Of a stretch of 64,000 nucleotides of DNA, positions 7,539 through 33,125 are shown one piece after another. Source of the DNA: a virus. Under the pieces are notes generated by a model. It made no database searches and was not told the origin of the DNA. It saw nothing but the letters and a program-made list of their open reading frames with translations. The stretch lies in IMG/VR virus record IMGVR_UViG_3300048837_000795, positions 1 to 64,000 of that record. The stretch is one strand, 5' to 3'. The position numbers and the translations under genes were made by a program. Numbering within the stretch: the first letter of the stretch is position 1; the number at the start of each line of letters is the position of its first letter.

Positions 7539-7570
7539 CCTAAAACCGGTTTCGCGTGAATTAATTAAGC
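7539..7570 (-). promoter_or_regulatory. Motif B copy 1
   Basis: Minus-strand copy of the repeated element: GCTTAA, a 12-base spacer, GAAACCGGTTTTAGG. It overlaps the stop codon of 7565-7828 and precedes the leftward replication operon. Confidence 0.75.
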
Positions 7571-7828
7571 AGCGTCCCAGTTATTGGCCTGACCGGCTTG
7601 AAACTCGTGCCCGAGCTGGGCCTGCGCTGCCAGAATCGAGCGGCGCACCCGCTCGATATCCGTCAGTACGGGCGTGAGCAGCTCGCGCATTTCTTCGCGC
7701 CGGCTGATCGCCTGGCGCACGCGCAGCTCATCATGCTCAAGGATGGCCAGCGCCGTGCCCAGCGAGTAGAGGCGGTCCTCGACCGACGCCTGGCGCGCGT
7801 CGGCCGATCTGGATAATTGGCCCTTCAT
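7565..7828 (-). CDS. Small coiled-coil protein, 87 aa
   Basis: Almost entirely helical with heptad-like spacing (VEDRLYSLGTALAILEHDEL, RREEMRELLTPVLTDIERV). Its start overlaps the stop of the membrane-protein gene upstream, so the pair is co-translated. Its stop lies inside the motif B element. Function is unknown. Confidence 0.65.
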   Translation of the reverse strand: MKGQLSRSADARQASVEDRLYSLGTALAILEHDELRVRQAISRREEMRELLTPVLTDIERVRRSILAAQAQLGHEFQAGQANNWDAA

Positions 7829-8187
7829 GGCCGCTCTTCCATCTGCCGGGCCCGCAGCGCCTCGCGCTCTTCTGCCTCGCGGGCGCGCAAACCGCGCTCG
7901 TGCCAGCTATCCAGCGCGTATAGAGCGCCAACCGTCAGGCCGGCGGAAACCACAATTGCCCATAGCGCTAAGGCCGCTGTGTAGGGTGATATATAACCAA
8001 TTTCAAATTGGCACCAAATTAGTAGGGCTGTATAAGGCAGCAAAATCCCTAACAGTCCTAGAATATAGTTATAGATAGGATGGAGTCGATCACGACCAAC
8101 AAGATAACGCCACGGCCAGTAATGCTCCCCAACCATGACCACCGCGGCAAAAATCGCAGCCAACATTACGGAAAATAGAATACTCAT
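7825..8187 (-). CDS. Membrane protein, about four transmembrane segments, 120 aa
   Basis: The start at 8187 follows GGGAGGTCTTCC. Hydrophobic stretches include ILFSVMLAAIFAAVVMV, YILGLLGILLPYTALLIW and AALALWAIVVSAGLTVGALY. The C terminus is a charged helix. The start codon shares CATG with a possible integrase start on the other strand. It could be a holin-like or superinfection-exclusion protein; nothing in the sequence decides. Confidence 0.65.
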   Translation of the reverse strand: MSILFSVMLAAIFAAVVMVGEHYWPWRYLVGRDRLHPIYNYILGLLGILLPYTALLIWCQFEIGYISPYTAALALWAIVVSAGLTVGALYALDSWHERGLRAREAEEREALRARQMEERP

Positions 8188-8209
8188 GGAAGACCTCCCA
8201 GAAACGAAT

Positions 8210-9115
8210 ATGTCACGGGAGCGGATCCTCGCTATTATAAAAAGCATGCTCAACGACGTGGACCGCTTCCTGAACGAAACAGACTACAGCCCAGCCACCG
8301 CGGTATCCTACGGGTACCATCTCAAACGGTTGGCGGACTGGTTAGATGCTGTTTGCATCCCCCCTGAGCATCTCAATGCGTCCTTACTGCGCACCTATCT
8401 CGGGTCCCACGGCTGGCGCAACAACTGTCAGCGGCTGGCCGGCAATGCCGCGAAAAGTTTTTTGAAGTGGCGTTACGGCGCGACTCATGCGGCGCTGAGC
8501 CTCAAGCTGCCAAAGGACGACTCTGCCCCCGGCCGCGCATTGGACCAGGTCGAGGTCGACCGGCTGCTGGCTGTGTTCGACACGACCAAAGCCGTCGGCT
8601 GGCGCGACCTGGCCATGCTGGCGTTGATGGTTGAGTCAGGCATCCGCGAGGCAGAAGTCTGCCGTCTGGAGCTGGATTACCTCGACCTGCGCAAGATGCG
8701 CTTCGATGTGCTGGCCAAAGGACGCGACTGGCGAGAGGGCGTCTTTTCGCCCATTACCGCGCAGTACCTGGATATCTGGCTGAATGCCAGAAAGGAGTTT
8801 GCCTATCCACCAAAATGCCCTTATGTGTTTGTGAGTGTGAATGGCAAGACCAAAGGGCGTCGTATGACGCCCGGCGGTCTGCGGGCCAATTTTCGTAAAA
8901 TGGGAGTACGGGCAGAATTGGGGAAATTCTCTCCGCACGTCATGCGCCGTACAATGGCAACGCTATTGATTTTAAACGGCGCGCCTACCCGGCTGGTGCA
9001 GGAGCTCGGAGGCTGGAGTGATATCCAGATGGTCGAGCGCTACACGCGCACGATCAATCCTCAACAAATCGAGCAGTATTCCCCGCTCTGCAATCCTATA
9101 GGGTTATCAAAGTAA
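8210..9115 (+). CDS. int: Tyrosine-recombinase integrase
   Basis: The protein has an N-terminal SAM-like core-binding domain and a C-terminal catalytic domain with the full active-site set: Arg in SGIREAEVCRL (about 146), Lys in LAKGRDW (about 170), HxxR in SPHVMRRTMA (about 243-246), Trp in GGWSD, and the nucleophile Tyr in MVERYTRTI (about 278). It should catalyse site-specific integration and excision of the prophage. Start choice is uncertain: ATGs at 8135 and 8186 are also in frame, but none has a strong ribosome binding site and the earlier ones overlap the divergent gene. A terminator and a tRNA-like attachment candidate lie just downstream. Confidence 0.9.
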   Translation: MSRERILAIIKSMLNDVDRFLNETDYSPATAVSYGYHLKRLADWLDAVCIPPEHLNASLLRTYLGSHGWRNNCQRLAGNAAKSFLKWRYGATHAALSLKLPKDDSAPGRALDQVEVDRLLAVFDTTKAVGWRDLAMLALMVESGIREAEVCRLELDYLDLRKMRFDVLAKGRDWREGVFSPITAQYLDIWLNARKEFAYPPKCPYVFVSVNGKTKGRRMTPGGLRANFRKMGVRAELGKFSPHVMRRTMATLLILNGAPTRLVQELGGWSDIQMVERYTRTINPQQIEQYSPLCNPIGLSK

Positions 9116-9124
9116 TCCGATAAG
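9104..9124 (+). promoter_or_regulatory. Motif A copy 2
   Basis: Reads TTATCAAAGTAA, TC, CGATAAG. It overlaps the integrase stop codon. A strong hairpin follows about 25 bp later, so a transcript started here would have to read through a terminator to reach the 9299-9622 gene. Confidence 0.6.
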
Positions 9125-9147
9125 ATGACTCCTACCCTACCCAAAAC

Positions 9148-9188
9148 AGCGGTCCTGCGGTAAAATAATAGCCGCAAGACCGCTTTTC
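9148..9188 (+). terminator. Rho-independent terminator after integrase
   Basis: AGCGGTC and TGCGG (one mismatch between) pair with CCGCA and GACCGCT across an AT-rich loop. TTTTC follows. Confidence 0.8.
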
Positions 9189-9190
9189 TT

Positions 9191-9250
9191 GGCTCACTAG
9201 CTCAATTGGCAGAGCAATTGACTCTTAATCAATGGGATTTAGGGTCAACG
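9191..9250 (+). other. attP: Partial tRNA-Lys(CUU)-like segment, candidate attP core
   Basis: The first 43 bases fold as a tRNA 5' portion: GGCTCAC acceptor strand, GCTC...GAGC D-stem with AATTGGCA loop, and ATTGA-CTCTTAA-TCAAT anticodon arm (anticodon CTT, lysine). The T-arm then degenerates and no GTGAGCC acceptor partner follows, so it is not a working tRNA gene. Its place directly after the integrase and terminator fits an attachment site shared with a host tRNA-Lys gene. Most phages carry the tRNA 3' end, so a 5'-side match is unusual. Confidence 0.6.
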
Positions 9251-9298
9251 GATCCGAGAAAATGCGGTTTTTTTGTTGTTAACGTGCTAGGTGACTAC

Positions 9299-9622
9299 AT
9301 GACTGAGAGCCTGAAACTCTTCAACGTTTTTGGGATGGTGACAGTCAGGCATAACCGCATCGTCGCATTGGCGACGGCAATTTTGCCAGGTGGCAGCAGC
9401 TGTGAGCGGACTCTGGCGCGCGACATCGACCCACCACTGAGCGTGATCGCGGATAACAAATCATTAACCTTGCTGTTTGCGGCCTCCCTGCGCGGGGAAA
9501 CCCGGGCCGAGGTGGCCGTCCAGCAGGTATCCGCGCGGACGGGCGCGGCGTCGGTGATCGACGAGCCGGCCGTGCAAAGCGCGATTGAGGATGTGATTGG
9601 TCTGGTGCGCAAAGCTCTATAA
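9299..9622 (+). CDS. Hypothetical protein, 107 aa
   Basis: ATG at 9299 follows AGGTG with short spacing. The sequence has beta-type segments (LKLFNVFGMVTVRHNRIVAL, LTLLFAASLRGETRAEVAVQ) and a helical C terminus. It lies between the attachment candidate and the repressor, a position often used for lysogeny or conversion genes. No family is recognised. Confidence 0.5.
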   Translation: MTESLKLFNVFGMVTVRHNRIVALATAILPGGSSCERTLARDIDPPLSVIADNKSLTLLFAASLRGETRAEVAVQQVSARTGAASVIDEPAVQSAIEDVIGLVRKAL

Positions 9623-9703
9623 GCCTCTACAGCCTACCGGCTGATACGGCGCCGCTGATCCTGGTGACACCTGGCTGGATCGACAGTTCAGCGGACATCG
9701 ATG

Positions 9704-9736
9704 CCCGGCCCCCATTTTGAGGGGCTGGGTTGTTTT
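9704..9736. terminator. Terminator between convergent genes
   Basis: A CCC/GGCCCC arm pairs with GGGGCTGGG around an ATTTTGA loop. TTGTTTTTA follows on the plus strand. It separates the 9299-9622 gene from the leftward repressor. Confidence 0.75.
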
Positions 9737-9739
9737 TAA

Positions 9740-9988
9740 TTATTTGGGTATACCCGAATCTCCTCCTGGGGTGTAGAATAGGATATCGCCGGGGTCCACC
9801 TGGCGACCCAACCGAGATGAGAAAAAATCGCACAGCGTTACCAGGGTGGCATAGCTGATTGCCCCGCCCTTGCCGTTGCGCAGGTTATACGCCGTAGTGG
9901 GGGAAATACCGGCACGGGCCAGATCGATCGGTGTGGCCTCAGCCTCAACTAACAAACTTTCAACACGCAGCTCTATTGTTCCCGGCAT
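9740..9988 (-). CDS. CI/Cro-type (XRE) helix-turn-helix repressor, 82 aa
   Basis: The protein is a single DNA-binding domain: ATPIDLARAGISPTTAYNLR is the helix-turn-helix, followed by GGAISYATLVTLCDFFSSRL, typical of short XRE regulators. It lacks a LexA-type cleavage domain. It is transcribed leftward from a consensus promoter (10008-10036) whose spacer holds a dyad, so it probably represses itself and the rightward promoter at 10090-10118. This makes it the likely lysogeny regulator. Confidence 0.75.
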   Translation of the reverse strand: MPGTIELRVESLLVEAEATPIDLARAGISPTTAYNLRNGKGGAISYATLVTLCDFFSSRLGRQVDPGDILFYTPGGDSGIPK

Positions 9989-10007
9989 AAAACCTCCATT
10001 TCGGTTT

Positions 10008-10036
10008 ATTGTATACTGTTAGTATTCCACTGTCAA
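10008..10036 (-). promoter_or_regulatory. Leftward sigma-70 promoter for the repressor, with internal dyad operator
   Basis: On the minus strand TTGACA, 17 bp, TACAAT. The dyad ATACT-GTT-AGTAT at 10013-10025 overlaps the -10 box and spacer and is a plausible repressor operator. Confidence 0.8.
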
Positions 10037-10089
10037 CAAAGGAAATGTGCCTATAAACTCATATAATCTAAGGAAATTCTTTTACACTG

Positions 10090-10118
10090 TTGACAATGCA
10101 CTAGAAAAGCCTTACAAT
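10090..10118 (+). promoter_or_regulatory. Rightward sigma-70 promoter
   Basis: TTGACA at 10090-10095, exactly 17 bp, TACAAT at 10113-10118, the same -10 box as the leftward promoter. It should drive the 10184-10834 genes, including the first sigma factor, and so act as the early lytic promoter. Confidence 0.85.
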
Positions 10119-10183
10119 GAACGTACCAAACAAACTGATCCAGCCAATCAGATGCAAGACCAGTCACCAGGAGTACCGTATCA

Positions 10184-10327
10184 ATGTCAGCCGTTTTCTT
10201 CACCCTTCACCCCACTGCTGCCCGCTCATTTGAGCAATGCAAAACCATCGCCGACCTGGCCCGCTCCGCTGTGGAGCTCGCGCCGGGTTTTCTGACGTTT
10301 TTCAAGATGCTCACAATTGGCCTTTAG
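10184..10327 (+). CDS. Small protein, 47 aa, leader of the sigma-factor operon
   Basis: ATG at 10184 follows CCAGGAGTACCGTATCA. The product starts MSAVFFTLHPTAARSFEQC and ends FFKMLTIGL. It lies 65 bp downstream of the rightward promoter and 9 bp before the sigma gene. A longer frame from 10047 is rejected because it spans the promoter. No family is recognised; a Cro-like or regulatory peptide role would be a guess. Confidence 0.6.
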   Translation: MSAVFFTLHPTAARSFEQCKTIADLARSAVELAPGFLTFFKMLTIGL

Positions 10328-10336
10328 GGGGACACG

Positions 10337-10834
10337 ATGACTATTCAAATTACCGAACTTGCACCCACGCTCGAACGCGTAGCTTATAAATTCACCAGCA
10401 CCGACGAAGATGCCGCCGACTTCCTGCAGGACGCCATGCTGGGCCTGGTAGAATTTACCCAGTCAGACCCGAACGCGCTGAGTAATTCCAGAACCTACCT
10501 GGTCAACCGCGGCAAATGGGCCGGTCAGCAGGCCGCCGATAAACACCGCACAATGGAGAACACGCGGTCGACCAGCCTGGACGGCCCCGGCGTAACCTTC
10601 GCCGAGCTGCTGCCCGCCGGTACCCTCGACCCGCAGGAAGCCGCCGAGCAGGCCGAAACGATCGAGGAGCTGCTTTCGATGACCGACGATATCCCCGACG
10701 GTCCGAAAATGGTCAAGCTGATTTATCTCGGTTATTCCGAGAAAGAGATCGCCGAGACCCTGCACGTCTCCGCCGCGGCCATCAGCCAGCGCAAACATAA
10801 GTTGATCGCGCGCTGGCGCAATCTGCAAATCTAA
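10337..10834 (+). CDS. Sigma-70 family factor (ECF-like size), 165 aa
   Basis: It has a region-2-like helix set (DAADFLQDAMLGLVEF and following) and a region-4 helix-turn-helix near the C terminus (GYSEKEIAETLHVSAAAISQ). The linker is short, as in group IV sigma factors. It follows RBS AGGGGGACACG and is the main product of the rightward early promoter. It is a strong candidate to read motif B or A promoters downstream. A terminator follows. Confidence 0.8.
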   Translation: MTIQITELAPTLERVAYKFTSTDEDAADFLQDAMLGLVEFTQSDPNALSNSRTYLVNRGKWAGQQAADKHRTMENTRSTSLDGPGVTFAELLPAGTLDPQEAAEQAETIEELLSMTDDIPDGPKMVKLIYLGYSEKEIAETLHVSAAAISQRKHKLIARWRNLQI

Positions 10835-10854
10835 TTCACGAGCCACGCACCAGA

Positions 10855-10883
10855 AGCCCCACGGAAACCCGCGGGGCTTTTTT
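10855..10883 (+). terminator. Rho-independent terminator
   Basis: AGCCCC pairs with GGGGCT, followed by six T. It ends the early sigma operon before motif B copy 2. Confidence 0.85.
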
Positions 10884-10892
10884 GATTCTCGT

Positions 10893-10929
10893 GCTTAATT
10901 TTTTGCCGCGAAACCGGTTTTAAGTACAC
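10893..10929 (+). promoter_or_regulatory. Motif B copy 2
   Basis: GCTTAA, TTTTTTGCCGC, GAAACCGGTTTTA, then AGTACAC. It lies directly upstream of the AGGAG of the 10944 gene. Confidence 0.8.
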
Positions 10930-10943
10930 AGGAGAACGGAACG

Positions 10944-11351: not shown

Positions 11352-11360
11352 GAGGCCAGA

Positions 11361-12155: not shown

Positions 12156-12190
12156 GGCCCGGCAGTTCCCCTGACTGCCGGGCCCCTTTT
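12156..12190 (+). terminator. Rho-independent terminator
   Basis: An 11-bp perfect stem, GGCCCGGCAGT with ACTGCCGGGCC, followed by CCCTTTTT. Confidence 0.85.
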
Positions 12191-12199
12191 TGCCAATTT

Positions 12200-12231
12200 G
12201 CTTAATTATTTCCCGCGAAACCGGTTTTAGG
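12200..12231 (+). promoter_or_regulatory. Motif B copy 3
   Basis: GCTTAA, TTATTTCCCGC, GAAACCGGTTTTAGG. It precedes the operon of the second sigma factor. Confidence 0.8.
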
Positions 12232-12257: not shown

Positions 12258-12455
12258 ATGCCCCCAAAAATCAAACCTCAGACAAAAGCCGTCGTGATGA
12301 TCACCCCCACCGGCACCTGCATTGTACGCACCGATGACGGCCGTCACGTCGCGCTGGCCCCTCAGCTGGCCGTAGACGTGGCGCGGACCATCCTCGATGA
12401 GGGCAAGCCCGCCATTTCACCGCCGCCGGCAAAAAGCGCCGGTTGGGTGCAGTGA
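12258..12455 (+). CDS. Small hypothetical protein, 65 aa
   Basis: ATG follows AGGAGTAGATCT. The product is a compact beta-type peptide (KAVVMITPTGTCIVRTDDGR) with a Pro-rich tail. It is the first gene behind motif B copy 3, 22 bp before the second sigma factor. Function is unknown. Confidence 0.6.
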   Translation: MPPKIKPQTKAVVMITPTGTCIVRTDDGRHVALAPQLAVDVARTILDEGKPAISPPPAKSAGWVQ

Positions 12456-12477
12456 CCCAGTTACCCAGGGGGACCGC

Positions 12478-13245
12478 ATGATACATGACCTGCTGACGGC
12501 TGAGGAAGAGATCGACCTGATCACCTGCGCGCGCGCCGGCGATACTGCCGCGCTGGAGTCGCTGGTCGAGCATAACCAGCGCCTGGTCTTCTCCATCGCC
12601 AACCGCTATTTTCATTCGGGTTTCGGCGGTGACCAGGACCTGGAAGACCTGGCGCAGTGGGGCAATATGGGCATGATCCATGCGATACGCAAATTTGACG
12701 CCCGCCGAGGCACGCGCTTCTCCACTTACGCAGTGCATTGGATCGACGCTTATATCCGGCGCTACGCCGGCGAACAAGCCAGGACCATCAGCATGACCCA
12801 GCGCGATACTGAGCGCCTGCGCAAGATCCGGCGCAGCCGTTCAGCGCTCACCATCCGGCTGCAGCGGGCGCCAACCGCCGCGGAGATCGCCGCCGACTGC
12901 GATATGGACGCCGCGTACGTCGCCGACTGGCTGCCGGCCCTGACCGCGCACGTGCGCCTCGACCGCGAGGTTGACCACGCTGCCGGCAATGATGACGCGC
13001 TGCACGAGATTATCAGCGCTGCCGACGATGACCATGACCCCGAGCGGGCCCTGGAACGCAAAGAGCTGGCCGAGCTGTTGGGCCGGCTCGACCCGCGCTG
13101 CCGGGAAGTAATCAACCGCCGCTTTTTCAACGAGCCGCCCGAGTCGCGCGCTCACATTGCCCAGCAGCTGGGCGTGTCGGTCGACTGCGTGCGCCGGCTC
13201 GAACAGCAGGCGCTGGAGATTATCCGGCCGCATTTTGGGGCTTAA
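12478..13245 (+). CDS. Sigma-70 family factor with regions 2, 3 and 4, 255 aa
   Basis: The start at 12478 follows AGGGGGACCGC; an upstream frame to 12397 lacks an RBS. Region 2 is clear (LVEHNQRLVFSIANRYFHSG, FSTYAVHWIDAYIRRYAGE). Region 3 is RAPTAAEIAADCDMDAAYVA. Region 4 is SRAHIAQQLGVSVDCVRRLE. It looks like a group-3 sigma factor lacking region 1. A second phage sigma factor implies a timed switch of promoter class. Its last codons lie inside motif B copy 4. Confidence 0.9.
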   Translation: MIHDLLTAEEEIDLITCARAGDTAALESLVEHNQRLVFSIANRYFHSGFGGDQDLEDLAQWGNMGMIHAIRKFDARRGTRFSTYAVHWIDAYIRRYAGEQARTISMTQRDTERLRKIRRSRSALTIRLQRAPTAAEIAADCDMDAAYVADWLPALTAHVRLDREVDHAAGNDDALHEIISAADDDHDPERALERKELAELLGRLDPRCREVINRRFFNEPPESRAHIAQQLGVSVDCVRRLEQQALEIIRPHFGA

Positions 13246-13276
13246 GTTTTCTGCGTGAAACCGGTTTTAAATCAGG
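13240..13276 (+). promoter_or_regulatory. Motif B copy 4
   Basis: GCTTAA (containing the sigma gene stop), GTTTTCTGCGT, GAAACCGGTTTTA, then the AGGAG of nrdG. Confidence 0.8.
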
Positions 13277-19017: not shown

Positions 19018-19054
19018 GCTTAATTTTTTGCGCCGAAACCGGTTTTAAGTACAC
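19018..19054 (+). promoter_or_regulatory. Motif B copy 5
   Basis: GCTTAA, TTTTTTGCGCC, GAAACCGGTTTTA, AGTACAC. It begins 2 bp after motif A copy 3, forming a tandem pair. Confidence 0.8.
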
Positions 19055-21148: not shown

Positions 21149-21345
21149 TCTGCGCTGAGCGCAACCGGCTGATCGACAAAACCCGGGCCGATCCAAAGGC
21201 GATCAACGAGCTGCGCTCTCACATTGCCGGCTGCCCGGAGTGCCTGGATTTTATCCGGTCCTTTCCAGCCGATGGCCCGCCGCCGCCGGAAGAGCCAGAG
21301 CCTGGCCATGCGCCGGCGGTGATCGGGCAGATAGCCATCGAATAG
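21145..21345 (+). CDS. Mini anti-sigma-like zinc protein, 66 aa
   Basis: The HxxxCxxC signature (SHIAGCPECLDFI) is that of zinc-binding anti-sigma (zf-HC2/ZAS) domains, with a further Cys at residue 3. The rest is a helix and a Pro/Glu-rich tail, so it is much shorter than membrane anti-sigmas. In a phage with two sigma factors it may hold one of them in check. Assignment rests on the signature alone. Confidence 0.45.
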   Translation: MICAERNRLIDKTRADPKAINELRSHIAGCPECLDFIRSFPADGPPPPEEPEPGHAPAVIGQIAIE

Positions 21346-21380
21346 CTTAAGTTTTTGCCGCGAAACCGGTTTTAGATCAG
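21345..21380 (+). promoter_or_regulatory. Motif B copy 6
   Basis: GCTTAA, GTTTTTGCCGC, GAAACCGGTTTTA, GATCAG. The previous stop abuts its first base. Confidence 0.8.
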
Positions 21381-21394: not shown

Positions 21395-23833
21395 ATGATG
21401 ACCTACGAAGAATATCTAGCAAGCAAAGTCACCAAAACGGAAATATCAGGATTTGAAGTGTCACTAGAGGCGCTCCATCCGATCCTGAAAGGTTGGCAGA
21501 AAGTCATTGTCCAGCATGCGCTCAAGATGGGTAAATACGCGCTGTTGGAAAATACCGGACTGGGTAAGACCTTGCAATATGGCGAATGGGCTAAGCACGT
21601 GGCTGCGCACACCGGTATGAAAGTGCTGATTGTTACCCCGCTTTCCGTGGCTGATCAAACGATACGCGAGCTCGATAAGAAGCTCCAGGTGGCCGCGCGC
21701 TACTGCCGGTCACAGGAAGAGGCCGAGTCGTGCGAAGAGCAGATCATCGTTACCAATTACGACATGCTCAAGGTGTTTGACCCGGAATACTTTTCCGGCC
21801 TGGTCCTGGATGAGTCAAGCATTCTTAAAAGCTACATGGGCAAGCTCAAGCAGTACATCCTGGAAACCTTCGCCAATACGCCCTATAAGCTGGCCTGCAC
21901 CGCTACCGCCGCGCCAAACGATCACATGGAATACGGCAATCATGCCGAATTTATCGATGCGATGAGCTCGACCGATGTTTTGCAGCGCTTTTTCATCAAC
22001 GACACGATGGAGGCCGGCGGCTATCGCTTGCTGGGATGGGCCGACACGACCAAGCCAATGGGGTTTTGGACGTGGCTTTCTTCATGGGCTGCCTGCATTT
22101 CTAAGCCGTCCGATATTCCAGGCTTTACCGATGATGACTTTGTTTTGCCTAACCTGGTAATCCACGAGGAAGTCGTTTCGATCGACCATACCCGCGCCTT
22201 CGATCAAGGGCAGCTCGTGATCTCGGGCAAGCTCAGCGCCACGGGCGTATGGAAGGAAAAGGCCCTTACGCTGGAAGATCGTTGCATCCGCGCGCGTGAG
22301 GTATACGACCGCATCCAGACGCATGAGCCGGTCGTTGTCTGGTGCCAGACGAACGATGAAGCTGATCGACTGGTGCAGCTCTTCCCTGATTTTGTCGAGG
22401 TGCGCGGGGAAGAAAAGCGCGAGGTAAAGCTGGCCAAGCTGCGCGATTTTGGAGACGGCAAATATCCCGGAATTATTACCAAAGCCGAGATCGCCGGCTA
22501 CGGCATGAACTGGCAGCACGCCGGCAATCATATCTTTGTTGGGGTAACGTACTCATTCGAGGATTTTTACCAGTCGATTCGCCGCTCTTACCGCTATATG
22601 CGCGAGGGCGATGTGCATGCCTGGCTGATCTATGCGGAAACCGAGGGCAATGTGCGCAAGGCCCTGGAGATGAAACAAAAAGAGTATGACCGCATGCAAT
22701 CCCGCATGAATGAGGCCATGCGCATTTATGGACTCGACCGGGCAGTAGACCGCAAGCAGGCCAATATTGAGATCGACGAAGATGTGGCCAGCGGGGAGGG
22801 ATGGACGAATTATTTAGGTGACTGCGTTCTGACCGCCCGTAAACATATTGCCGCCGATAGTGTTGACTTCTCTATCTTCTCGCCGCCATTCGCTGAGCTT
22901 TACCGCTACACCGACAAAGTCGCCGATATGGGCAACGTAGCCAATATGGACGAATTCTTTGAGGGGTTTGATTATATGATCCACGAGCTGTACCGGGTGA
23001 TCAAACCGGGCCGGCTGGTCGCTGTGCACTGCAAAGACCTTCCCCTGTACATGAACCGTGACGCGGCCGCCGGGCTGCGCGACTTTCCCGGTGAGATCGT
23101 CAATCATTTCCAGAAATACCAGTACGATCGTGACCATATCCCCAGCGAAGACCCGCAGTACAAAAACCGGCGCTGGATCCTGCACTCAAAGGTCACGATC
23201 TGGAAAGATCCGGTCATCGAAATGCAGCGCACGAAAAACCACGGCCTGTTGTGGAAAAACTTCATGGAGCGCGGAGAGGTCGTGCGCCAGGGCATGGCAG
23301 ATTATCTGTATGTTTTCCGCAAGTGGGTGGATATGGACGAAATGCCAGACAAGCAAATTCAGCGCGTTATGAAAGCGCCTGGCTTTCACGATGGCGAAGA
23401 TGAGCATGTTTTTATCGGCGAAAACCCGCCCTTGCGTTTCGATGGTGACCGTGACTACTCGATCCAGGTATGGCAGAAATACGCTTCGCCGGTCTGGGAT
23501 GATATCCGTCAGACCAATGTGCTCAACGGCCGCATTGCCCGCGAGGACCGCGACCAGAAACATATCTGCCCGCTTCAGCTCGACGTGATCGACCGCGGGA
23601 TCGACCTGTGGACAAACCCCGGCGATCTGGTATATGACCCTTATAACGGGGTTGGGTCCACCACCAGCAGGGCTGTGCAAATGCACCGGCGCGCGGTTGG
23701 GAGTGAGCTCAAGAAAACCTATTGGAAGCTGGGCAACAAACACAATAAACAGGCCGAGCAGGAAGCGCGAAACGTGGACCTCTTTGCCTACGCCGCGTCG
23801 CTGCCCATCGAAGAACAGGCCGCCGCAGATTAG
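21395..23833 (+). CDS. Fusion of SNF2/DEAD-type helicase and DNA methyltransferase, 812 aa
   Basis: The N-terminal half is a superfamily-2 ATPase: ENTGLGKTLQYGEW (Walker A, about 52-60), LDESS (motif II, about 138-142), TATAAP (motif III) and a helicase C domain (VVVWCQTNDEADRLVQLF, FYQSIRRSYRYMREG). From about residue 470 follows a DNA methyltransferase with catalytic SPPF (about 495-498) and AdoMet loop YDPYNGVGSTTSRAV (about 746). SPPF suggests N4-cytosine methylation, or N6-adenine. The fusion resembles type III/ISP-like restriction enzymes without a nuclease. NVDLF near the C terminus is clamp-motif-like. RBS is AGAGG behind motif B. Confidence 0.85.
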   Translation: MMTYEEYLASKVTKTEISGFEVSLEALHPILKGWQKVIVQHALKMGKYALLENTGLGKTLQYGEWAKHVAAHTGMKVLIVTPLSVADQTIRELDKKLQVAARYCRSQEEAESCEEQIIVTNYDMLKVFDPEYFSGLVLDESSILKSYMGKLKQYILETFANTPYKLACTATAAPNDHMEYGNHAEFIDAMSSTDVLQRFFINDTMEAGGYRLLGWADTTKPMGFWTWLSSWAACISKPSDIPGFTDDDFVLPNLVIHEEVVSIDHTRAFDQGQLVISGKLSATGVWKEKALTLEDRCIRAREVYDRIQTHEPVVVWCQTNDEADRLVQLFPDFVEVRGEEKREVKLAKLRDFGDGKYPGIITKAEIAGYGMNWQHAGNHIFVGVTYSFEDFYQSIRRSYRYMREGDVHAWLIYAETEGNVRKALEMKQKEYDRMQSRMNEAMRIYGLDRAVDRKQANIEIDEDVASGEGWTNYLGDCVLTARKHIAADSVDFSIFSPPFAELYRYTDKVADMGNVANMDEFFEGFDYMIHELYRVIKPGRLVAVHCKDLPLYMNRDAAAGLRDFPGEIVNHFQKYQYDRDHIPSEDPQYKNRRWILHSKVTIWKDPVIEMQRTKNHGLLWKNFMERGEVVRQGMADYLYVFRKWVDMDEMPDKQIQRVMKAPGFHDGEDEHVFIGENPPLRFDGDRDYSIQVWQKYASPVWDDIRQTNVLNGRIAREDRDQKHICPLQLDVIDRGIDLWTNPGDLVYDPYNGVGSTTSRAVQMHRRAVGSELKKTYWKLGNKHNKQAEQEARNVDLFAYAASLPIEEQAAAD

Positions 23834-23850
23834 CGGCGGTCTGTTTTCTT
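23820..23850 (+). terminator. Terminator-like hairpin
   Basis: CCGCCGC pairs with GCGGCGG around AGATTA, followed by TCTGTTTTCTTT. Confidence 0.7.
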
Positions 23851-23855
23851 TGGAA

Positions 23856-23876
23856 TTATCTTAGTAAGTCTATAGG
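23856..23876 (+). promoter_or_regulatory. Motif A copy 4
   Basis: TTATCTTAGTAA, GT, CTATAGG. The AGGAG ribosome binding site of the next gene starts inside its 3' end, so a transcript starting at the final G would have a leader of about 14 nt. It stands alone here, without motif B. Confidence 0.65.
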
Positions 23877-23887
23877 AGTGCTTATAT

Positions 23888-24145
23888 ATGAAGAACCCTC
23901 AGTTAAAGCCTGAAATTGCTCAATCCGTGAGTGACGCCGTTGCGGCAATTCAAAAACTTTTCTTCGAAGAGTCGCAAGAACCCCCGCGCAAAGCAAGCAT
24001 GCCCGAGCGGGTTAGAGCGCGCCTGTACTACGTCATGTATGACGTGTTTTACTGGATCACCTATTTTGTGTGGTCTTTTTTCGCCGGCATTATTGACGGT
24101 GTGAAAGATGCTGTCGGGGCGGTAAACGTAAAGAGGGACGTATGA
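23888..24145 (+). CDS. Small membrane protein, 85 aa
   Basis: A charged N-terminal helix is followed by an aromatic-rich membrane segment (LYYVMYDVFYWITYFVWSFF) and a short tail. It is first in the operon behind motif A copy 4, and its stop overlaps the DndC-like gene. Function is unknown. Confidence 0.6.
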   Translation: MKNPQLKPEIAQSVSDAVAAIQKLFFEESQEPPRKASMPERVRARLYYVMYDVFYWITYFVWSFFAGIIDGVKDAVGAVNVKRDV

Positions 24146-25290
24146 AGAGCCAGCCCTCACTGTTCGAAGGCATGAGAATGGATTTGAATTCATCCATCGA
24201 ATTAAGCATACAGAGTCTGGCGTCATACGGGAGTAGCTACCGGCATTGGGCGGTTGCTTATAGCGGCGGCAAGGACTCGACCGCTACAGCCGCATTTGTC
24301 GCCTGGGCAATCAAGGAGCGCCTTGTTCCGGCGCCGGAAACCCTGACTTTTTTGTATGCAGACACTCGTATGGAGCTCCCTCCGCTGCAACAAGGCGCGA
24401 TGCGGCTGCTTGACGCGATGCGGCGCGATGGCTTCGAGGCGCAAGTTGTTCTGCCTACTCTCAACGAGCGGTTTTTTGTCTATATGCTGGGCCGTGGCGT
24501 TCCACCGCCCAAAAACCGATTCCGGTGGTGCACGGTCCAGATAAAGGTCGAGCCTATGCAGGCGGCGCTGGCCGGCTTACGAGAGCAGGCAGGGGAGAAG
24601 TTATTGATGCTGACCGGAGTGCGCATGGGCGAAAGCGCCGCGCGCGATCAGAGAATTGCCTTAAGCTGCTCGAAGGACTCGGGCGAGTGCGGTCAGGGAT
24701 GGTTCCAAACCGCTACGGATAGCGCGATAGCTGACACTCTTGCGCCCCTGCTGCACTGGCGATTGTGCCATGTTTATGACTGGCTTTACCTAGATGACCG
24801 GCACAAATACGACGTGAGCGGGATTGCGGCTATCTATGGCGATGAGGACGTGCGCACTGGCTGCGCTGGATGCAATCTTGTCGATCGAGACACGGCATTG
24901 GAGCGGCTGGTAAAAAATCCAGCATGGGCACATATCGCACCGCTTCTTGAGCTCAAGCCGCTGTACAGGGAGCTGACAAAATCAAAATGGCGAAAGCGCA
25001 AGGCCGAGCCGGAATTGCGCAAGGACGGCAAGTATTCCAAAAACGGGCAGCGCATGGGGCCGCTGACAATGGCCGGGCGTAAGTTTGGCCTGGATAAAGT
25101 GCTAGACATACAGCGACGGGCCGGGGTTGACCTGATCAACGCAGAGGAAGAGGCCGCTATCCGTGAAATGTGGCAGACCAATACTTGGCCGAATAAGTGG
25201 TCAGATCAAGATATTGATGCAAATAAGCCCATCGATCTTGCTATCTCGGATGGCAGTCGAATTATCAGACAGGCCCTATTGGTAAGGTAG
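24142..25290 (+). CDS. PAPS-reductase/DndC-like PP-loop sulfurtransferase-type protein, 382 aa
   Basis: The PP-loop ATP-pyrophosphatase signature SGGKDST lies at residues 41-47. Downstream RFRWCTVQIKVEPM, GVRMGESAARDQR and a GCAGC cysteine pair match the PAPS reductase/DndC branch. DndC activates sulfur for DNA phosphorothioation, but no dndB, D or E is in the window, and phage orphans of this family are common and mostly uncharacterised. The N terminus QPSLFEG fits a clamp-binding pentapeptide (QxSLF). A Mom-like gene follows two genes later. RNA modification or a sulfur-metabolism role is also possible. Confidence 0.75.
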   Translation: MKSQPSLFEGMRMDLNSSIELSIQSLASYGSSYRHWAVAYSGGKDSTATAAFVAWAIKERLVPAPETLTFLYADTRMELPPLQQGAMRLLDAMRRDGFEAQVVLPTLNERFFVYMLGRGVPPPKNRFRWCTVQIKVEPMQAALAGLREQAGEKLLMLTGVRMGESAARDQRIALSCSKDSGECGQGWFQTATDSAIADTLAPLLHWRLCHVYDWLYLDDRHKYDVSGIAAIYGDEDVRTGCAGCNLVDRDTALERLVKNPAWAHIAPLLELKPLYRELTKSKWRKRKAEPELRKDGKYSKNGQRMGPLTMAGRKFGLDKVLDIQRRAGVDLINAEEEAAIREMWQTNTWPNKWSDQDIDANKPIDLAISDGSRIIRQALLVR

Positions 25291-25732: not shown

Positions 25733-26034
25733 AATATTACCTTTACTCGAATATTACCGGCTGTCACCCGTCCTGGACGGTGGCTGTGCTTGCGGTGAGT
25801 CGAAGCGATGCAAATCAGCGCATCAACGGCCCGATGTGGCGCGGTGGGAAATTCGCCGGCGAAGTAGAGTCCGGAAATGTCAAGGCCGATTGCGGGGATG
25901 TGACGGAAAAAGCAGGAGCTATTTTGCATGAACAGCTCGAAGAAGAGTATCTAAGAGCAAAGGCTGTCCAGGCGCGACTTACCAGAGCACTGGGCAGGGA
26001 GCCGACTTTGATGGAAACGGTGAATTCCTTATGA
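25729..26034 (+). CDS. Hypothetical protein, 101 aa
   Basis: It opens with beta strands (MKYYLYSNITGCHPSWTVAV) and ends in helices (LHEQLEEEYLRAKAVQARLT). It overlaps both neighbours by 4 bp, directly before the Mom-like gene. It could be a partner of that protein, by position only. Confidence 0.6.
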   Translation: MKYYLYSNITGCHPSWTVAVLAVSRSDANQRINGPMWRGGKFAGEVESGNVKADCGDVTEKAGAILHEQLEEEYLRAKAVQARLTRALGREPTLMETVNSL

Positions 26035-26750
26035 TCACGTTGATCCCCCTCGACCGCAAAGGCATTGCCTGGACGCAGCGGGTCGTCACTGAATATCACT
26101 ACCTGCATAAGCCAGTTGATGCGCGCTGCTCCGTCGAGGGGTACGAAATCCAGCTGTCAAACTATGGGTTTGCCGGCGTGCTGCTGTTTGGGCGTCCTCA
26201 AGCAACGAAGTGCCGGGACTGGTACGGCTCGGTCGAAGATGCGCAGGCCGGGCGATGCGAAGTGACTCGCTGGCAGGTGCTCAATCTGGCCCGGGTCTGG
26301 ATTTGTCCCGAATTCCAACCGGGCGGAGCGCATTGGGAATATTGGAAAGAAAACGGCGGTAATACGGCGCTGCGCTATTACCTTCCGGGCTTTGTGGATC
26401 GCAAAGACGTCTTTCGCTCTACCCTGGCCAGCGACGTGCTCAGGCTGGCAGCGGCGCAGATTGGCCTTGATTATCTTCTACGCCGGCCGCCCTGCTTTCT
26501 GGAAGAGCCTTACGAGATCCGCTGGCTGCTCTCATACTGCGATACCCGACTGCACAAAGGCACGATCTACCAGGCCGCCGGCTTCGAGCTGTATAGCACA
26601 AACGATGACGGCATTCAGACCTGGCGCATCCAGCTGCCCGCCCTGACTGACGATCAAGATAACCAGGTGCGGCAGGCCTCGCTGATCTCCCCACGCTCCA
26701 ACCGGTACCGAGCACAAAGATCCCAGCTCACGTTTGATTTTTCCGCTTAA
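26031..26750 (+). CDS. Mom-like DNA-modification acyltransferase-fold protein, 239 aa
   Basis: Features shared with the phage Mu Mom/GNAT-like group: an early YHYLHK motif (about 23-28), FAGVLLFGRP, LNLARVWICPEF, and the late KGTIYQAAGFELYS. Mu Mom converts adenine in DNA to a carbamoylmethyl form that blocks restriction. The last residues, QLTFDF, fit a sliding-clamp-binding hexapeptide, which would place modification at the replication fork. Assignment is by motif memory. It ends inside motif B copy 7 (GCTTAA supplies its stop). Confidence 0.65.
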   Translation: MITLIPLDRKGIAWTQRVVTEYHYLHKPVDARCSVEGYEIQLSNYGFAGVLLFGRPQATKCRDWYGSVEDAQAGRCEVTRWQVLNLARVWICPEFQPGGAHWEYWKENGGNTALRYYLPGFVDRKDVFRSTLASDVLRLAAAQIGLDYLLRRPPCFLEEPYEIRWLLSYCDTRLHKGTIYQAAGFELYSTNDDGIQTWRIQLPALTDDQDNQVRQASLISPRSNRYRAQRSQLTFDFSA

Positions 26751-26780
26751 TTTTTCCGCGCGAACCCGGTTATAGATCAG
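26745..26780 (+). promoter_or_regulatory. Motif B copy 7 (most divergent)
   Basis: GCTTAA, TTTTTCCGCGC, GAACCCGGTTATA, GATCAGGAG. It has two substitutions in the otherwise fixed core. Confidence 0.7.
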
Positions 26781-28571: not shown

Positions 28572-28696
28572 CTCCCGCCGATTGGGCCCTTGTTTACCGC
28601 GTCGCCGCGCTGCTGTTCGTCCTGCTGGCCTGGTATGCCATATTCGTGGCAGTTATCTTCCTGTTTTTGGAGGCGCTCCGTGGAAAACACAGTTGA
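28568..28696 (+). CDS. Very small membrane protein, 42 aa
   Basis: ATG overlaps the Lar-like stop. One membrane helix (ALLFVLLAWYAIFVAVIFLF) and a basic tail. It overlaps the next small membrane gene. Confidence 0.55.
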   Translation: MTPADWALVYRVAALLFVLLAWYAIFVAVIFLFLEALRGKHS

Positions 28697-29379: not shown

Positions 29380-29909
29380 GCTACACCACGCTTTACAAAA
29401 TAACACCGTCGGGCAGAATCAGTGAGTATGCCGAATTCAAGAATTCGCACCGCGGGGCTATGCTGGTATGGTGCAACGTCTACAAGTGTTATCTGCCAGA
29501 GCGCATCGAAGCCGAAAAACTTATGAATGGCTTTGAGCCGCACGGCCCATTCAGGGAGGCCGATTACAAGGCATTATGGCCGTTGTTCAGAGACGTGCGC
29601 CTGCCCGATTACGTGCGCGCTGTGCTGGGATCAACGTATGACCGGGTTGTTTTGGAAAAGAAATATTTTCAGCGCTTCTATGATGACGTTCTGAAATATG
29701 CCGGCATGTTTGAGGCAGGAACGATGATCGAGCAGGCGCAGTCTATCCTTAGACTGCGCGGTAAGAAGGTTTTTGGCGTGTGCTGGAATCAAACCAGTGT
29801 AGGCAGTGGCTTCTGGCACAAAGGCAATATCCATAAAGTTGATGGTCCCTGGTCGCTGTACGGAGCGATTGACAGGATCAGCGCCGGCGAGAAAGGCGGT
29901 GAGGCATGA
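29376..29909 (+). CDS. Hypothetical protein, 177 aa
   Basis: Recurrent phage-type sequence: SHRGAMLVWCNVYKCYLP early, GFEPHGPFREADYKALWPLF in the middle, and KKVFGVCWNQTSVG later. No catalytic motif is recognised. It is coupled to the ASCH-domain gene. Confidence 0.6.
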   Translation: MSYTTLYKITPSGRISEYAEFKNSHRGAMLVWCNVYKCYLPERIEAEKLMNGFEPHGPFREADYKALWPLFRDVRLPDYVRAVLGSTYDRVVLEKKYFQRFYDDVLKYAGMFEAGTMIEQAQSILRLRGKKVFGVCWNQTSVGSGFWHKGNIHKVDGPWSLYGAIDRISAGEKGGEA

Positions 29910-30535
29910 AACAGCGACCGATTATTATGACGGCTGAAAGCGTGCGCGCGATCGAGGGCGATTGCAAAACGCAGACAAGGCGGGTGATCATGCCGCAGCC
30001 AACAGGCGGGTTTCTCGGTTTTATCAGAGAGCGCAAAACCCACTGGTTCAGGGGCGAAACAAGAACGCTTGAGGTCAAATGCCCCTACGGCCAACCTGGA
30101 GACCGACTCTGGGTGCGCGAAACGTGGGCATGCGTGAAATGGTTCGATCACTTCAAACCGAGCGAGATCCCGAAAGGTGACGAACGCTGGCCGTCCGTTT
30201 TTTTTAGCGCATGGACTGGAGCCGCGCGGAATGCCTGGTGCCGCGGCAAGTGGCGGTCAGCAAGGTTCATGCCCCGCTGGGCATCGCGATTCACCCTGGA
30301 GGTTATCAGCGTGCGAGTCGAGCGGCTGAATGAAATCAGCAAAGAAGACGCAAAAGCCGAGGGTATGTATTGCGGCTTCATCGGCGGAAGTTACGACTTC
30401 CCTATCGGCCCATACGATGCTTACACGGCAAATTACCGCAAAGCCTGGGATGAAATCAACGCCAAACGCGGCTATCCCTGGGAGTCAAATTGTTGGGTCT
30501 GGGTCATCGAATTCAAAAGGATCGAGCAGCCATGA
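29906..30535 (+). CDS. ASCH/PUA-like domain phage protein, 209 aa
   Basis: The opening RPIIMTAESVRAIEGDCKTQ, then CPYGQPGDRLWVRETW, FMPRWASRFTLEVISVRVER and LNEISKEDAKAEG are standard for the phage ASCH-like family. ASCH domains are RNA-binding-type beta barrels; the phage members are uncharacterised. The gene is coupled at both ends. Confidence 0.75.
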   Translation: MKQRPIIMTAESVRAIEGDCKTQTRRVIMPQPTGGFLGFIRERKTHWFRGETRTLEVKCPYGQPGDRLWVRETWACVKWFDHFKPSEIPKGDERWPSVFFSAWTGAARNAWCRGKWRSARFMPRWASRFTLEVISVRVERLNEISKEDAKAEGMYCGFIGGSYDFPIGPYDAYTANYRKAWDEINAKRGYPWESNCWVWVIEFKRIEQP

Positions 30536-30750
30536 TCGAAAAAATAGAGCTGGCCTGGGTGCCGATGAGTGAGCGACTGCCGCCTGCACCCGGAAAATAT
30601 CTTACCCAGCGCGTCACGCGCGTGACTGAGCATGGCCACGGCAAGCGCACCATCTACAGCGTGATCCTGTCCGCATATTGGGACGGGCAAACATTCAACC
30701 TACACGACCAGCCAACGCACTGGCGTGATCTACCAAAGGATATGCAATGA
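30532..30750 (+). CDS. DUF551-like small protein, 72 aa
   Basis: WVPMSERLPPAPGKYLTQRV and a YWDGQTFNLHD/THWRDLP ending fit DUF551, a small phage domain of unknown function. The start at 30532 overlaps the previous stop. Confidence 0.65.
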   Translation: MIEKIELAWVPMSERLPPAPGKYLTQRVTRVTEHGHGKRTIYSVILSAYWDGQTFNLHDQPTHWRDLPKDMQ

Positions 30751-31052
30751 GCGAAGATGTGCAGGAACTAACAGCAGAGGAAAAGCACGAGTCATGGCTG
30801 GAGTCTGGCAAGTGGGCCGGCATGACTCTGGGCGAGCTGGTCTCTAATATGATCGACGGGGGAGGCGGCGACGACGTACCCTTCGTGAGGGTTACAGAGC
30901 AGACTGAACGAAACGATCAGGGTGAATACATCATGCAGATGGAGATTCGTCTCGTACCTAACGGGCAAGTGATAGAAGAGGCCGCCAAAATCGGCTGCAA
31001 CCTATTCCACAACCGGCTGATCGAGGCGATCAACAAAGGATTGGTGAAATGA
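30747..31052 (+). CDS. Hypothetical protein, 101 aa
   Basis: An acidic helical head (AEEKHESWLESGKWAGMTLG) and a beta-type tail (IMQMEIRLVPNGQVI). It overlaps neighbours. No family is recognised. Confidence 0.55.
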   Translation: MSEDVQELTAEEKHESWLESGKWAGMTLGELVSNMIDGGGGDDVPFVRVTEQTERNDQGEYIMQMEIRLVPNGQVIEEAAKIGCNLFHNRLIEAINKGLVK

Positions 31053-31276
31053 GCGGTGATATCGGCAGCATACTCGAACTAGGGGCGATCGTCCAGAATG
31101 AGCTGAAGCTGCGTGATGAGGCCAACCGCCTGGCTGAGGCAATGCTTCATCCCAAACCGGCGCCGCGCAAAACCCCACGGCCAAAGCGCGCCCGCCCCGA
31201 TGCGCAGCTCGCAAAGCCGCACAAGCCGACCAACCGCGAGAAACGCCGGCAGCGCCGGCAGGCAAAGCGCAAGTAA
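31049..31276 (+). CDS. Very basic small protein, 75 aa
   Basis: A short helix (AIVQNELKLRDEANRLAEAM) is followed by an extremely basic tail of Lys, Arg and Pro ending in REKRRQRRQAKRK. This charge suggests nucleic-acid binding or condensation. Last gene of its operon; a terminator follows. Confidence 0.55.
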   Translation: MSGDIGSILELGAIVQNELKLRDEANRLAEAMLHPKPAPRKTPRPKRARPDAQLAKPHKPTNREKRRQRRQAKRK

Positions 31277-31280
31277 CCCA

Positions 31281-31310
31281 AAGGCCCCATCCCCGGGGCC
31301 TTTTATTTTT
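31281..31310 (+). terminator. Rho-independent terminator
   Basis: AAGGCCCC with GGGGCCTT around ATCCCC, then TTATTTTT. Confidence 0.85.
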
Positions 31311-31319
31311 CCTAACGAG

Positions 31320-31340
31320 TTATCAAAGTAACCCTATAGA
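31320..31340 (+). promoter_or_regulatory. Motif A copy 5
   Basis: TTATCAAAGTAA, CC, CTATAGA. It begins 10 bp after the terminator and 3 bp before motif B copy 8. Confidence 0.65.
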
Positions 31341-31342
31341 CT

Positions 31343-31380
31343 GCTTAATTTCTTGCGCTGAAACCGGTTTTAAGTACAGG
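31343..31380 (+). promoter_or_regulatory. Motif B copy 8
   Basis: GCTTAA, TTTCTTGCGCT, GAAACCGGTTTTA, AGTACAGG. It heads the AAA+ gene. Confidence 0.8.
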
Positions 31381-31391
31381 AGAACACGACC

Positions 31392-32936
31392 ATGAACCAG
31401 ATCCAAGCCATTGAAATTTTAGAGCGCTATATCCGCGCTCGTTATCCGATCATCGCCACACTCAGCCACGAAGAGACCCGCGTCATGGCGGCCATCCGCG
31501 CCGCCGCCAACAGCCGCAAGATGGAGCTCGTCGAATGGTCCATCACCACCGGCCTGTTGGGGGAGGGCTTTGACGCTTCCGGCACGCGCGACGTGGTCGC
31601 CGCGTTCGAGGCTATGCTGGGCGCATCCACTGACCGCTCGATCCTGTTTGTCATGCGCGACCTGCACGGCGCGCTGGGCAACGCGGACCGTGGGCATGAT
31701 CCGCTGATCACGCGCTACCTGCGCGACCTGGCTGAGAAATTCGCCGCCTGCCGCAATACTCTGGTGCTGCTGTCGCCGGCCTTCTCGATCCCCTCGGACC
31801 TCGACAAAACCATCGTACTGATCGACTGGCCGCTGCCCGACTCGGAAGAGCTGGGCGCGGTGCTCACAAAGGCCGAGATCGACCTGCCGGCGTCTATCCC
31901 CTACACCCTCAACGGCAACCGCGACCGGGTTATCCAGGCCATGCGCGGCCTGACGCTGTTCGAGGCCGAGTCGGTGCTCTCTTCCGGCATTGTCGCCACG
32001 CGGCAGTTGGGCGATAACATCATCCCCTTTATCGTCAAGGAAAAGGCGCAGATCATCCGCAAGGCCGGCGTGTTGGAATACTACGACACCGACGTGACCA
32101 TGAACCAGGTGGGCGGGCTGCAATATCTCAAGGAATATTCCGCGATCAAGCGCAAAGCCTTCTCACGCGAGGCTGCCGCCGCGGGTGTGGATGCGCCAAA
32201 GGGCTTGCTGCTGGTCGGCATCCCCGGCACCGGTAAATCCCTGGCCGCCAAAGCCATTGCCGGCGGGCAAATGCCCCTGCTGCGCATGGACGTGGGCGCG
32301 CTGATGGGTGGGCTGGTCGGGCAGAGTGAGGGCAATATGCGCGCCGCGCTCAAGGTTGCAGAGGCCGTTGCCCCGTGTGCGCTCTGGTTGGATGAAATCG
32401 AGAAAGCAATCTCGGGCGGCGGTGGGGAGCTGGACGGCGGCACGAGTGCGCGCGTCTTTGGCACGCTGCTGACCTGGATGCAGGAGACCACGGCGCCGGT
32501 TTACGTAATAGCCACCGCAAACGATATCCGCTCCCTGCGCCCCGAGCTGATCCGGCGCTTTGACGATATGATGTGGGTCGACCTGCCCAACCAGGCGGCG
32601 CGCGTCGAGATCCTGACGGTACACCTGTCCAAACGCCGGCAGGACGCTTCCCGCATCGACCTAGAGTCGGCCGCCCGGGCCACCTGGGGTTTCTCGGGCG
32701 CGGAGATCGAAAAGACGGTCAAGAGCGCGTTGGAACGGGCATTCTCACAGGGCCAGGAGCTCAGCACGGATTACCTGCTCAAGGCTGCCTCGAAAATTGT
32801 CCCCATCGCCGTGACGATGGAAAACAAGATCAAAGACCTGCGCGCCCAGGCCCAGCACGCGCTGCAGGCCGGCGATCCGCTGGAGACAAAGCCGGCAGCC
32901 GTTGCAAGCCGGGCGGTCGACCTGAGCGATTTATAA
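31392..32936 (+). CDS. Ycf46-like AAA+ ATPase, 514 aa
   Basis: An N-terminal domain with Ycf46-like features (ILERYIRARYPIIATLSHEE, WSITTGLLGEGF) is followed by one classical AAA+ module: LVGIPGTGKSLAAKAI (Walker A, about 275), CALWLDEIEKA (Walker B), VIATANDI (sensor 1) and LRPELIRRFDD (Arg finger). Ycf46 proteins are known from chloroplasts and cyanobacteria and their substrates are unsettled. It has its own A+B promoter pair, and DUF1257 and DUF2997 genes follow, so the set likely works as one system. Confidence 0.8.
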   Translation: MNQIQAIEILERYIRARYPIIATLSHEETRVMAAIRAAANSRKMELVEWSITTGLLGEGFDASGTRDVVAAFEAMLGASTDRSILFVMRDLHGALGNADRGHDPLITRYLRDLAEKFAACRNTLVLLSPAFSIPSDLDKTIVLIDWPLPDSEELGAVLTKAEIDLPASIPYTLNGNRDRVIQAMRGLTLFEAESVLSSGIVATRQLGDNIIPFIVKEKAQIIRKAGVLEYYDTDVTMNQVGGLQYLKEYSAIKRKAFSREAAAAGVDAPKGLLLVGIPGTGKSLAAKAIAGGQMPLLRMDVGALMGGLVGQSEGNMRAALKVAEAVAPCALWLDEIEKAISGGGGELDGGTSARVFGTLLTWMQETTAPVYVIATANDIRSLRPELIRRFDDMMWVDLPNQAARVEILTVHLSKRRQDASRIDLESAARATWGFSGAEIEKTVKSALERAFSQGQELSTDYLLKAASKIVPIAVTMENKIKDLRAQAQHALQAGDPLETKPAAVASRAVDLSDL

Positions 32937-32943
32937 AAATGAC

Positions 32944-32975
32944 CGGGCCGGATTGGGGTTACCTGATCCGGCCCG
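32944..32975 (+). terminator. Strong hairpin after AAA+ gene
   Basis: CGGGCCGGAT pairs with ATCCGGCCCG over 10 bp. No T-run follows, so it may be an mRNA-stabilising hairpin or weak terminator. Confidence 0.5.
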
Positions 32976-33053
32976 TAGCTTCACAGGAAGGCACTACAGC
33001 GATTTTGTGCACCAGAGTCGTATTTTCTCCCATTGGTTGATTATTCTATAACG

Positions 33054-33074
33054 TTGTTTAAGTAATTCGATAGG
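33054..33074 (+). promoter_or_regulatory. Motif A copy 6
   Basis: TTGTTTAAGTAA, TT, CGATAGG. It lies 13 bp before motif B copy 9. Confidence 0.65.
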
Positions 33075-33087
33075 ATTTAGGATTTGT

Positions 33088-33125
33088 GCTTAAGTTTTGG
33101 TGCTGAAACCGGTTTTAAGTACAGG
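33088..33125 (+). promoter_or_regulatory. Motif B copy 9
   Basis: GCTTAA, GTTTTGGTGCT, GAAACCGGTTTTA, AGTACAGG. It heads the DUF1257/DUF2997 operon. Confidence 0.8.

Follow-up and report, generated by a model that had tools for sequence, protein, structure and literature searches.

We analyzed a 64,000-nt stretch of the virus record IMGVR_UViG_3300048837_000795 (hereafter "the window"; the IMG/VR record is 65,423 bp in full, 58% GC), in which nine copies of a 32-bp element, motif B, stand at the heads of operons. Motif B is probably a phage-specific promoter, read by the host RNA polymerase when it carries sigma1, a 165-amino acid (aa) sigma factor resembling those of the extracytoplasmic function (ECF) type and encoded by the phage itself. 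Comparison with related phages further suggests, at about even odds, that at least eleven of these phages keep one early/middle regulon at the same operon heads while an ECF-like sigma factor and its promoter sequence have diverged almost beyond recognition, i.e., that they hold co-evolving and mutually orthogonal sigma–promoter pairs in which the 17-nt spacer is mostly constant.

Nine copies of a bipartite element with invariant geometry

Motif B follows the consensus GCTTAA-[TG]TTTT-n6-GAAACCGGTTTTA-RR-T, i.e., a repeated bipartite, promoter-like element with a fixed spacer at operon heads. Eight of the nine copies match GCTTAA-N11-GAAACCGGTTTTA exactly, against 0.01 such matches expected from shuffled sequences, and the ninth (at 26745) differs by two mismatches (GAACCCGGTTATA). 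Scored with a matrix built from the copies themselves, the nine sites reached 44.5–55.5 (37–54 when left out one at a time), compared to 8.5 for the next-best site in the window and 10.6 for the top score across 10 Markov shuffles. The reversed pattern, used as a control, had 0 matches in the full record. The core of the element contains a palindrome, AAACCGGTTT, which is perfect in eight copies. The nine copies are as follows:

7539–7570, minus strand: copy 1 (score 48.1), candidate promoter heading a leftward replication operon (7503 down to ~1222)
10893–10924, plus strand: copy 2 (score 55.5), just 3′ of sigma1 and before 10944
12200–12231, plus strand: copy 3, heading the sigma2-containing operon, with an intrinsic terminator (12156–12184) directly 5′
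13240–13271, plus strand: copy 4, overlapping the sigma2 stop codon and heading a radical-SAM gene operon (13289)
19018–19049, plus strand: copy 5, heading a 412-aa gene (19071), with a dyad (motif A, see below) just 5′
21345–21376, plus strand: copy 6, heading a helicase-methyltransferase operon (21395)
26745–26776, plus strand: copy 7, the variant copy (score 44.5), heading 26794
31343–31374, plus strand: copy 8, heading an AAA-ATPase gene (31392), with a motif A dyad just 5′
33088–33119, plus strand: copy 9, heading an open reading frame (ORF) starting at 33138, with a motif A dyad 5′

Seven plus-strand copies have their start codon 19–28 nt past the last A of the element. The distance is ~20 nt for the copy at 33088 (to the ATG at 33138), and for the minus-strand copy either 37 nt to a GTG at 7503 or 43 nt to an ATG at 7497. 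By inspection, the copies at 10893, 19018, and 31343 come after terminator-like sequences. On the ORF map, the operons headed by motif B span 7.5 down to 1.2 kb (minus strand) and 10.9 to ~35.2 kb (plus strand), leaving outside an integrase/immunity segment together with sigma1, and the late structural module.

A first-pass annotation of the window had placed motif B at nine sites, each pointing into an operon shortly before a start codon and none in the late module, with a nearly invariant spacing of 11–12 nt between conserved blocks. All nine sites were recovered with scores far above background, each faces a gene, and no copy occurs in the late minus-strand module (34985–64000). The spacer range needs correcting, however: the blocks are separated by exactly 11 nt in 9/9 copies, so that the spacing is fully invariant.

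Element families at orthologous operons of related phages

Across IMG/VR, the exact motif B pattern was found in 0 contigs, and the window matrix gave no match in the first relatives examined; motif discovery was therefore performed separately for each phage. Relatives were identified through the AAA-ATPase at 31392 (42–59% identity) and are "linear" IMG/VR records. Ten of these phages (L162–L169, L009, and L155/L163, as well as L175, which was examined afterwards) have, ahead of the orthologous AAA-ATPase, a repeated element of their own with co-oriented copies, spelled differently from lineage to lineage. Most of these phages also carry it ahead of further genes, orthologous operons among them, and a ribosome-binding site commonly follows at a short distance.

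We then compared orthologs across ten phages, i.e., the window and nine relatives, with L175 added later. The AAA-ATPase is headed by an element in 10/10 phages (and in L175), the 412-aa gene in 8/10 (including seven relatives), the gene downstream of the ATPase in 5/10, and the radical-SAM gene in 4/10 (the window, L162, L164, and L168). Eight element copies had no clear downstream gene under the rule applied, and the L165 element, three copies of GCTAAA-N17-GGTTAC, was found by hand. Overall, the matrix scan and the comparison with relatives proposed in the first-pass annotation yielded no further copy in the window and, for the exact pattern, none in the rest of the record, and revealed relatives whose elements largely keep their layout and their position at orthologous operons, with a diverged sequence.

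A proposed −35/17-nt/−10 register

Elements from eight relatives can be laid out, like motif B, as −35 and −10 hexamers separated by a 17-nt spacer:

Window: GCTTAA / GGTTTT
L163: GCTTAA / GGTTAT
L165: GCTAAA / GGTTAC
L169: CCCTAA / TGTTAT
L168: CTCTAA / CGTTAT
L167: TTGCAC / CGTTCT
L166: ATARAC / YGTTAT
L164: TTTGCT / TGTATT
L162: CAATTT / TATATA

These registers were picked by eye and then tested by comparing each full matrix to the window matrix at 25 offsets. The best offset was the proposed 17-nt register for L163 (p=0.001), L165 (p=0.012), L168 (p<0.001), and L169 (p<0.001), and these four phages share TAA and GTTAT cores with motif B. In all four, the left half of the palindrome is replaced while the −35/−10 cores stay.

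This bears on the earlier suggestion that motif B is either a phage-specific middle promoter or an operator with a palindromic core. The promoter alternative gains support from relatives that keep the −35/17-nt/−10 layout at orthologous operon heads; the palindrome is real in the window but its two half-sites are not both conserved among relatives, which speaks against the operator. A FliA/sigma28-like promoter was also considered (TAAA-N15-GCCGATAA compared to TTAA-N15-CCGGTTTTA) and set aside: its spacing is attractive, but neither phage sigma factor reaches the FliA/WhiG cut-off, and the relatives align better as −35/17/−10.

Phage-encoded sigma factors and the likely reader

The window encodes two sigma factors, next to a regulatory switch region:

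10337–10834, plus strand: sigma1, an ECF-like protein of 165 aa and the sigma factor proposed to read motif B (TIGR02937, 54.4 bits vs. a cut-off of 42.9; PF04542, 24.4 vs. 24)
12397–13245, plus strand: sigma2, a sigma factor of 282 aa that has regions 2, 3, and 4 (PF04542/PF04539/PF04545), RpoS/SigA/SigF-like, inside the motif B operon starting at 12200
10090–10118, plus strand: host-type sigma70 promoter sequence, TTGACA-N17-TACAAT (11/12), toward sigma1 (10337)
10008–10036, minus strand: divergent host-type sigma70 promoter sequence, TTGACA-N17-TACAAT (11/12), toward the Cro/C1-like gene
9740–9988, minus strand: Cro/C1-type helix-turn-helix protein (PF13443, 27.1 bits vs. a cut-off of 22), probable immunity repressor
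8135–9115: integrase

Sigma1 is a member of the sigma70-ECF superfamily and has the composition of an ECF sigma factor, with regions 2 and 4 and without region 3; the TIGR02937 match spans residues 7–159 of 165, and region 2 is barely above its cut-off. Since the proposed −35 of motif B, GCTTAA, is not the GGAAC(TT) of ECF-type promoters, sigma1 is called ECF-like by its protein and not by its promoter. An AlphaFold model (mean predicted local distance difference test score, pLDDT, of 78.5) shows two helical domains and, between them, a linker modeled with low confidence. Its closest solved structures are ECF and other sigma factors (Mycobacterium tuberculosis SigH and SigL, FliA, and Escherichia coli sigmaE), with template modeling scores (TM-scores) of ~0.3 and a best E-value of 0.007; such low scores would fit two domains of uncertain relative placement, and we use the structure as supporting evidence only. 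The promoter sequence at 10090–10118 is a likely source of sigma1 transcription. Because it carries an integrase and a Cro/C1-type regulator, the phage is probably temperate.

Sigma1-like genes are present in the records of 9/10 relatives. Eight of the encoded proteins were tested against NCBIfam, and all eight matched TIGR02937, two of them above the cut-off. In L162, L164, L167, L168, and L169, the ATPase gene is preceded, at a distance of 5–14 kb, by the sigma1-like gene in the same orientation, and an element stands just downstream of the sigma1-like gene in the window, L162, L164, and L167. The records of only three relatives (L162, L165, and L166) yielded a gene resembling sigma2. Searched in IMG/VR, sigma2 as a single query returned nothing, and the helicase-methyltransferase returned only distant, widespread relatives. 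Given sigma1-like genes in 9/10 relatives and sigma2-like genes in three, sigma2 is probably not the reader. The first-pass annotation had left open which of the two phage sigma factors, if either, reads motif B; both genes exist, and presence/absence patterns, gene order, and promoter logic, all computational, favor sigma1.

Two records hold further features at their sigma genes. In that of L167, two adjacent sigma-like ORFs (L218, 911–1435 and 1435–1935) have overlapping stop and start. The L009 record (L156, 1465–2193, minus strand; L158, 1039–1917, minus strand) encodes a sigma1-like protein that has a cysteine-rich stretch, similar to a zinc ribbon, at its N terminus; by eye, the record also encodes a ParB-like protein, hinting at a plasmid-like prophage.

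Alternative explanations and points of tension

The strongest alternative, which we nevertheless consider improbable, is that sigma2 reads motif B in a positive feedback loop, its gene being inside a motif B operon. The full set of regions 2, 3, and 4 would suit a bipartite promoter, the sigma2 gene has a motif B copy on either side (12200 and 13240), and autoregulation is common among sigma factors. However, such a loop would need another promoter to start, and no sigma2-like gene was found in the records of L164, L167, L168, L169, L009, and L175, although these phages carry elements at the corresponding operon heads.

Less plausible still is a host alternative sigma factor whose regulon the phage would borrow. 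Different hosts would account for the different motifs of the relatives, yet 9/10 relatives carry a sigma-like gene of their own, and a scan of 84,980 genomes for motif B gave 15 single matches, judged to be chance, none of which had the conserved T-run or was followed by a ribosome-binding site.

We place at a similarly low level the possibility of an operator, i.e., a repressor or activator binding the palindrome and controlling a weak promoter nearby. The near-perfect conservation of the palindrome within the window and the presence of a Cro/C1-like protein would be compatible with it. Against this stand the loss of the left half-site in four relatives that keep the −35/−10 register, the fixed orientation of the element toward its gene, sigma70 matches near motif B sites that are no better than in random windows, and the existence of a separate true dyad, motif A, as a better operator candidate. 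Finally, the position of motif B within ~20–30 nt of start codons, adjoining the Shine-Dalgarno sequence, could suggest a translation element acting in the RNA 5′ leader, but we give this almost no credence: no known RNA family (Rfam) matches, the palindrome is loopless and cannot form a hairpin, and several copies lie directly 3′ of terminator-like sequences, so that hardly any space is left for a promoter further 5′.

Several observations also weigh against a promoter read by sigma1. The best offset to the window matrix is 1 nt away from the proposed register in L162 and L166 (p=0.005), 3 nt away in L164 (p=0.04), and 2 nt away in L167 (p=0.06). The L009 element does not fit the register, and L009 and L175 differ in layout; these two look like a second layout. 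No sigma1-like gene was found in the 28-kb L155 record although L155 carries the element. The relatives are linear records of uncertain completeness, so that the absence of sigma2 may reflect missing sequence. Co-divergence of sigma1 and motif was not significant over nine phages (Mantel r=0.26, p=0.17), a result explained by the saturation of sigma1 identities near 20%. Lastly, two copies (13240 and 26745) have a Shine-Dalgarno sequence that begins only 5 nt past the proposed −10, and the leader would therefore begin at the ribosome-binding site.

Proposed transcription program

We infer that motif B would initiate transcription with sigma1 as its reader, using GCTTAA as −35, a 17-nt spacer, and GGTTWT as −10. 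Shine-Dalgarno sequences often begin 5–7 nt past the proposed −10, and transcription would start ~6–8 nt past it, on the Shine-Dalgarno sequence or immediately 5′ of it. From the switch at ~10.0–10.1 kb, sigma1 and the immediate-early region would be transcribed with host sigma70. Sigma1 would then turn on the nine motif B operons, i.e., early/middle genes, including that of sigma2, and the late module would come next, by another signal.

Relation to known systems

Bacteriophage SPO1 uses sequential sigma factors, gp28 and gp33/34, for middle and late genes; the cascade idea is similar, in an unrelated phage and with unrelated promoter sequences. In T4 middle promoters, a MotA box with GCTT near −30 replaces the usual −35, the host TATAAT −10 is kept, and MotA/AsiA are needed. 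Motif B resembles the MotA box in its GCTT, whereas its −10 is GGTTWT and its phage encodes sigma factors.

In phiEco32 (gp36) and phage 7-11 (gp47), a phage sigma factor steers the host polymerase to a small set of promoters at operon heads (PMC8948821). Their promoters, tAATGTAtA and GTAAtg-(16)-aCTA, are dissimilar and stand at similar genome positions, and the two sigma factors are 15% identical (PMC8948821). The lineage described here shares this combination of diverged sigma factors, dissimilar candidate promoters, and similar positions, although motif B contains neither of the two promoter sequences. It differs in that phiEco32 and 7-11 use their sigma factor for middle and late genes (PMC8948821) whereas the ECF-like sigma here appears to serve early/middle operons, and in that this phage bears an integrase and places a second sigma factor within the regulon. 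SigN (ZpdN) of the Bacillus subtilis plasmid pBS32 is made from host SigA promoters and reads its own −35/−10 set across a mobile replicon (PMC6751061). Unlike SigN, which has its own SigN-dependent promoter (PMC6751061), sigma1 has no motif B directly before it, and the promoter sequences differ.

Regulons in which a phage sigma factor has promoters of its own are thus already known; the unusual feature here is how many lineages keep the position of the regulon while the promoter sequence changes. The marker protein of the lineage had no match among 50,697 named phage records nor in plasmid records, and the relative L162 had no match in plasmid records.

Other motifs and genes in the window

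Motif A is a 28-bp dyad, CTATnGAATTAyTTAArTAATTCnATAG, with 10 credible sites across the early and late modules (1626, 9095, 18986, 23847, 31311, 33045, 41929, 55688, 55726, and 59178), and resembles a set of operators serving a phage regulator. It lies upstream of three motif B copies, and a comparable dyad lies upstream of the three B-type copies of L165. An argument from helical phase was dropped: the dyad center is 17.5, 17.5, and 28.5 bp before motif B in the window, and ~13.5, 20.5, and 21.5 bp in L165.

Motif C (GCGTTATAMTGA) occurs in four exact copies (0 expected) at 37482, 52719, 55650, and 58917 on the minus strand, all in the late module 5′ of late genes. The motif is not shared by the relatives, and its copies are candidate late promoters, perhaps for sigma2. 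At three sites (52630–52720, 55581–55650, and 58848–58917, minus strand), a terminator-like hairpin and T-run stand between motif C and the gene start, which could form an attenuator or antitermination point.

The late gene at 53047–54723 contains about nine imperfect 63-bp repeats (53195–53889), as in a repetitive tail/fiber protein. Genes at 21395–25290 and 26031–26750, i.e., the helicase-methyltransferase fusion, a PAPS-reductase/DndC-like gene, and a Mom-like gene, suggest DNA modification or protection.

Implications

If motif B is read as proposed, the sequence of an uncultured phage lineage would reveal how its transcription is ordered, from host sigma70 to sigma1 and on to sigma2. The relatives would form a panel of diverged sigma–promoter pairs on a fixed regulon, in which the rewiring of promoter specificity would be directly testable, and these pairs could yield orthogonal expression parts.

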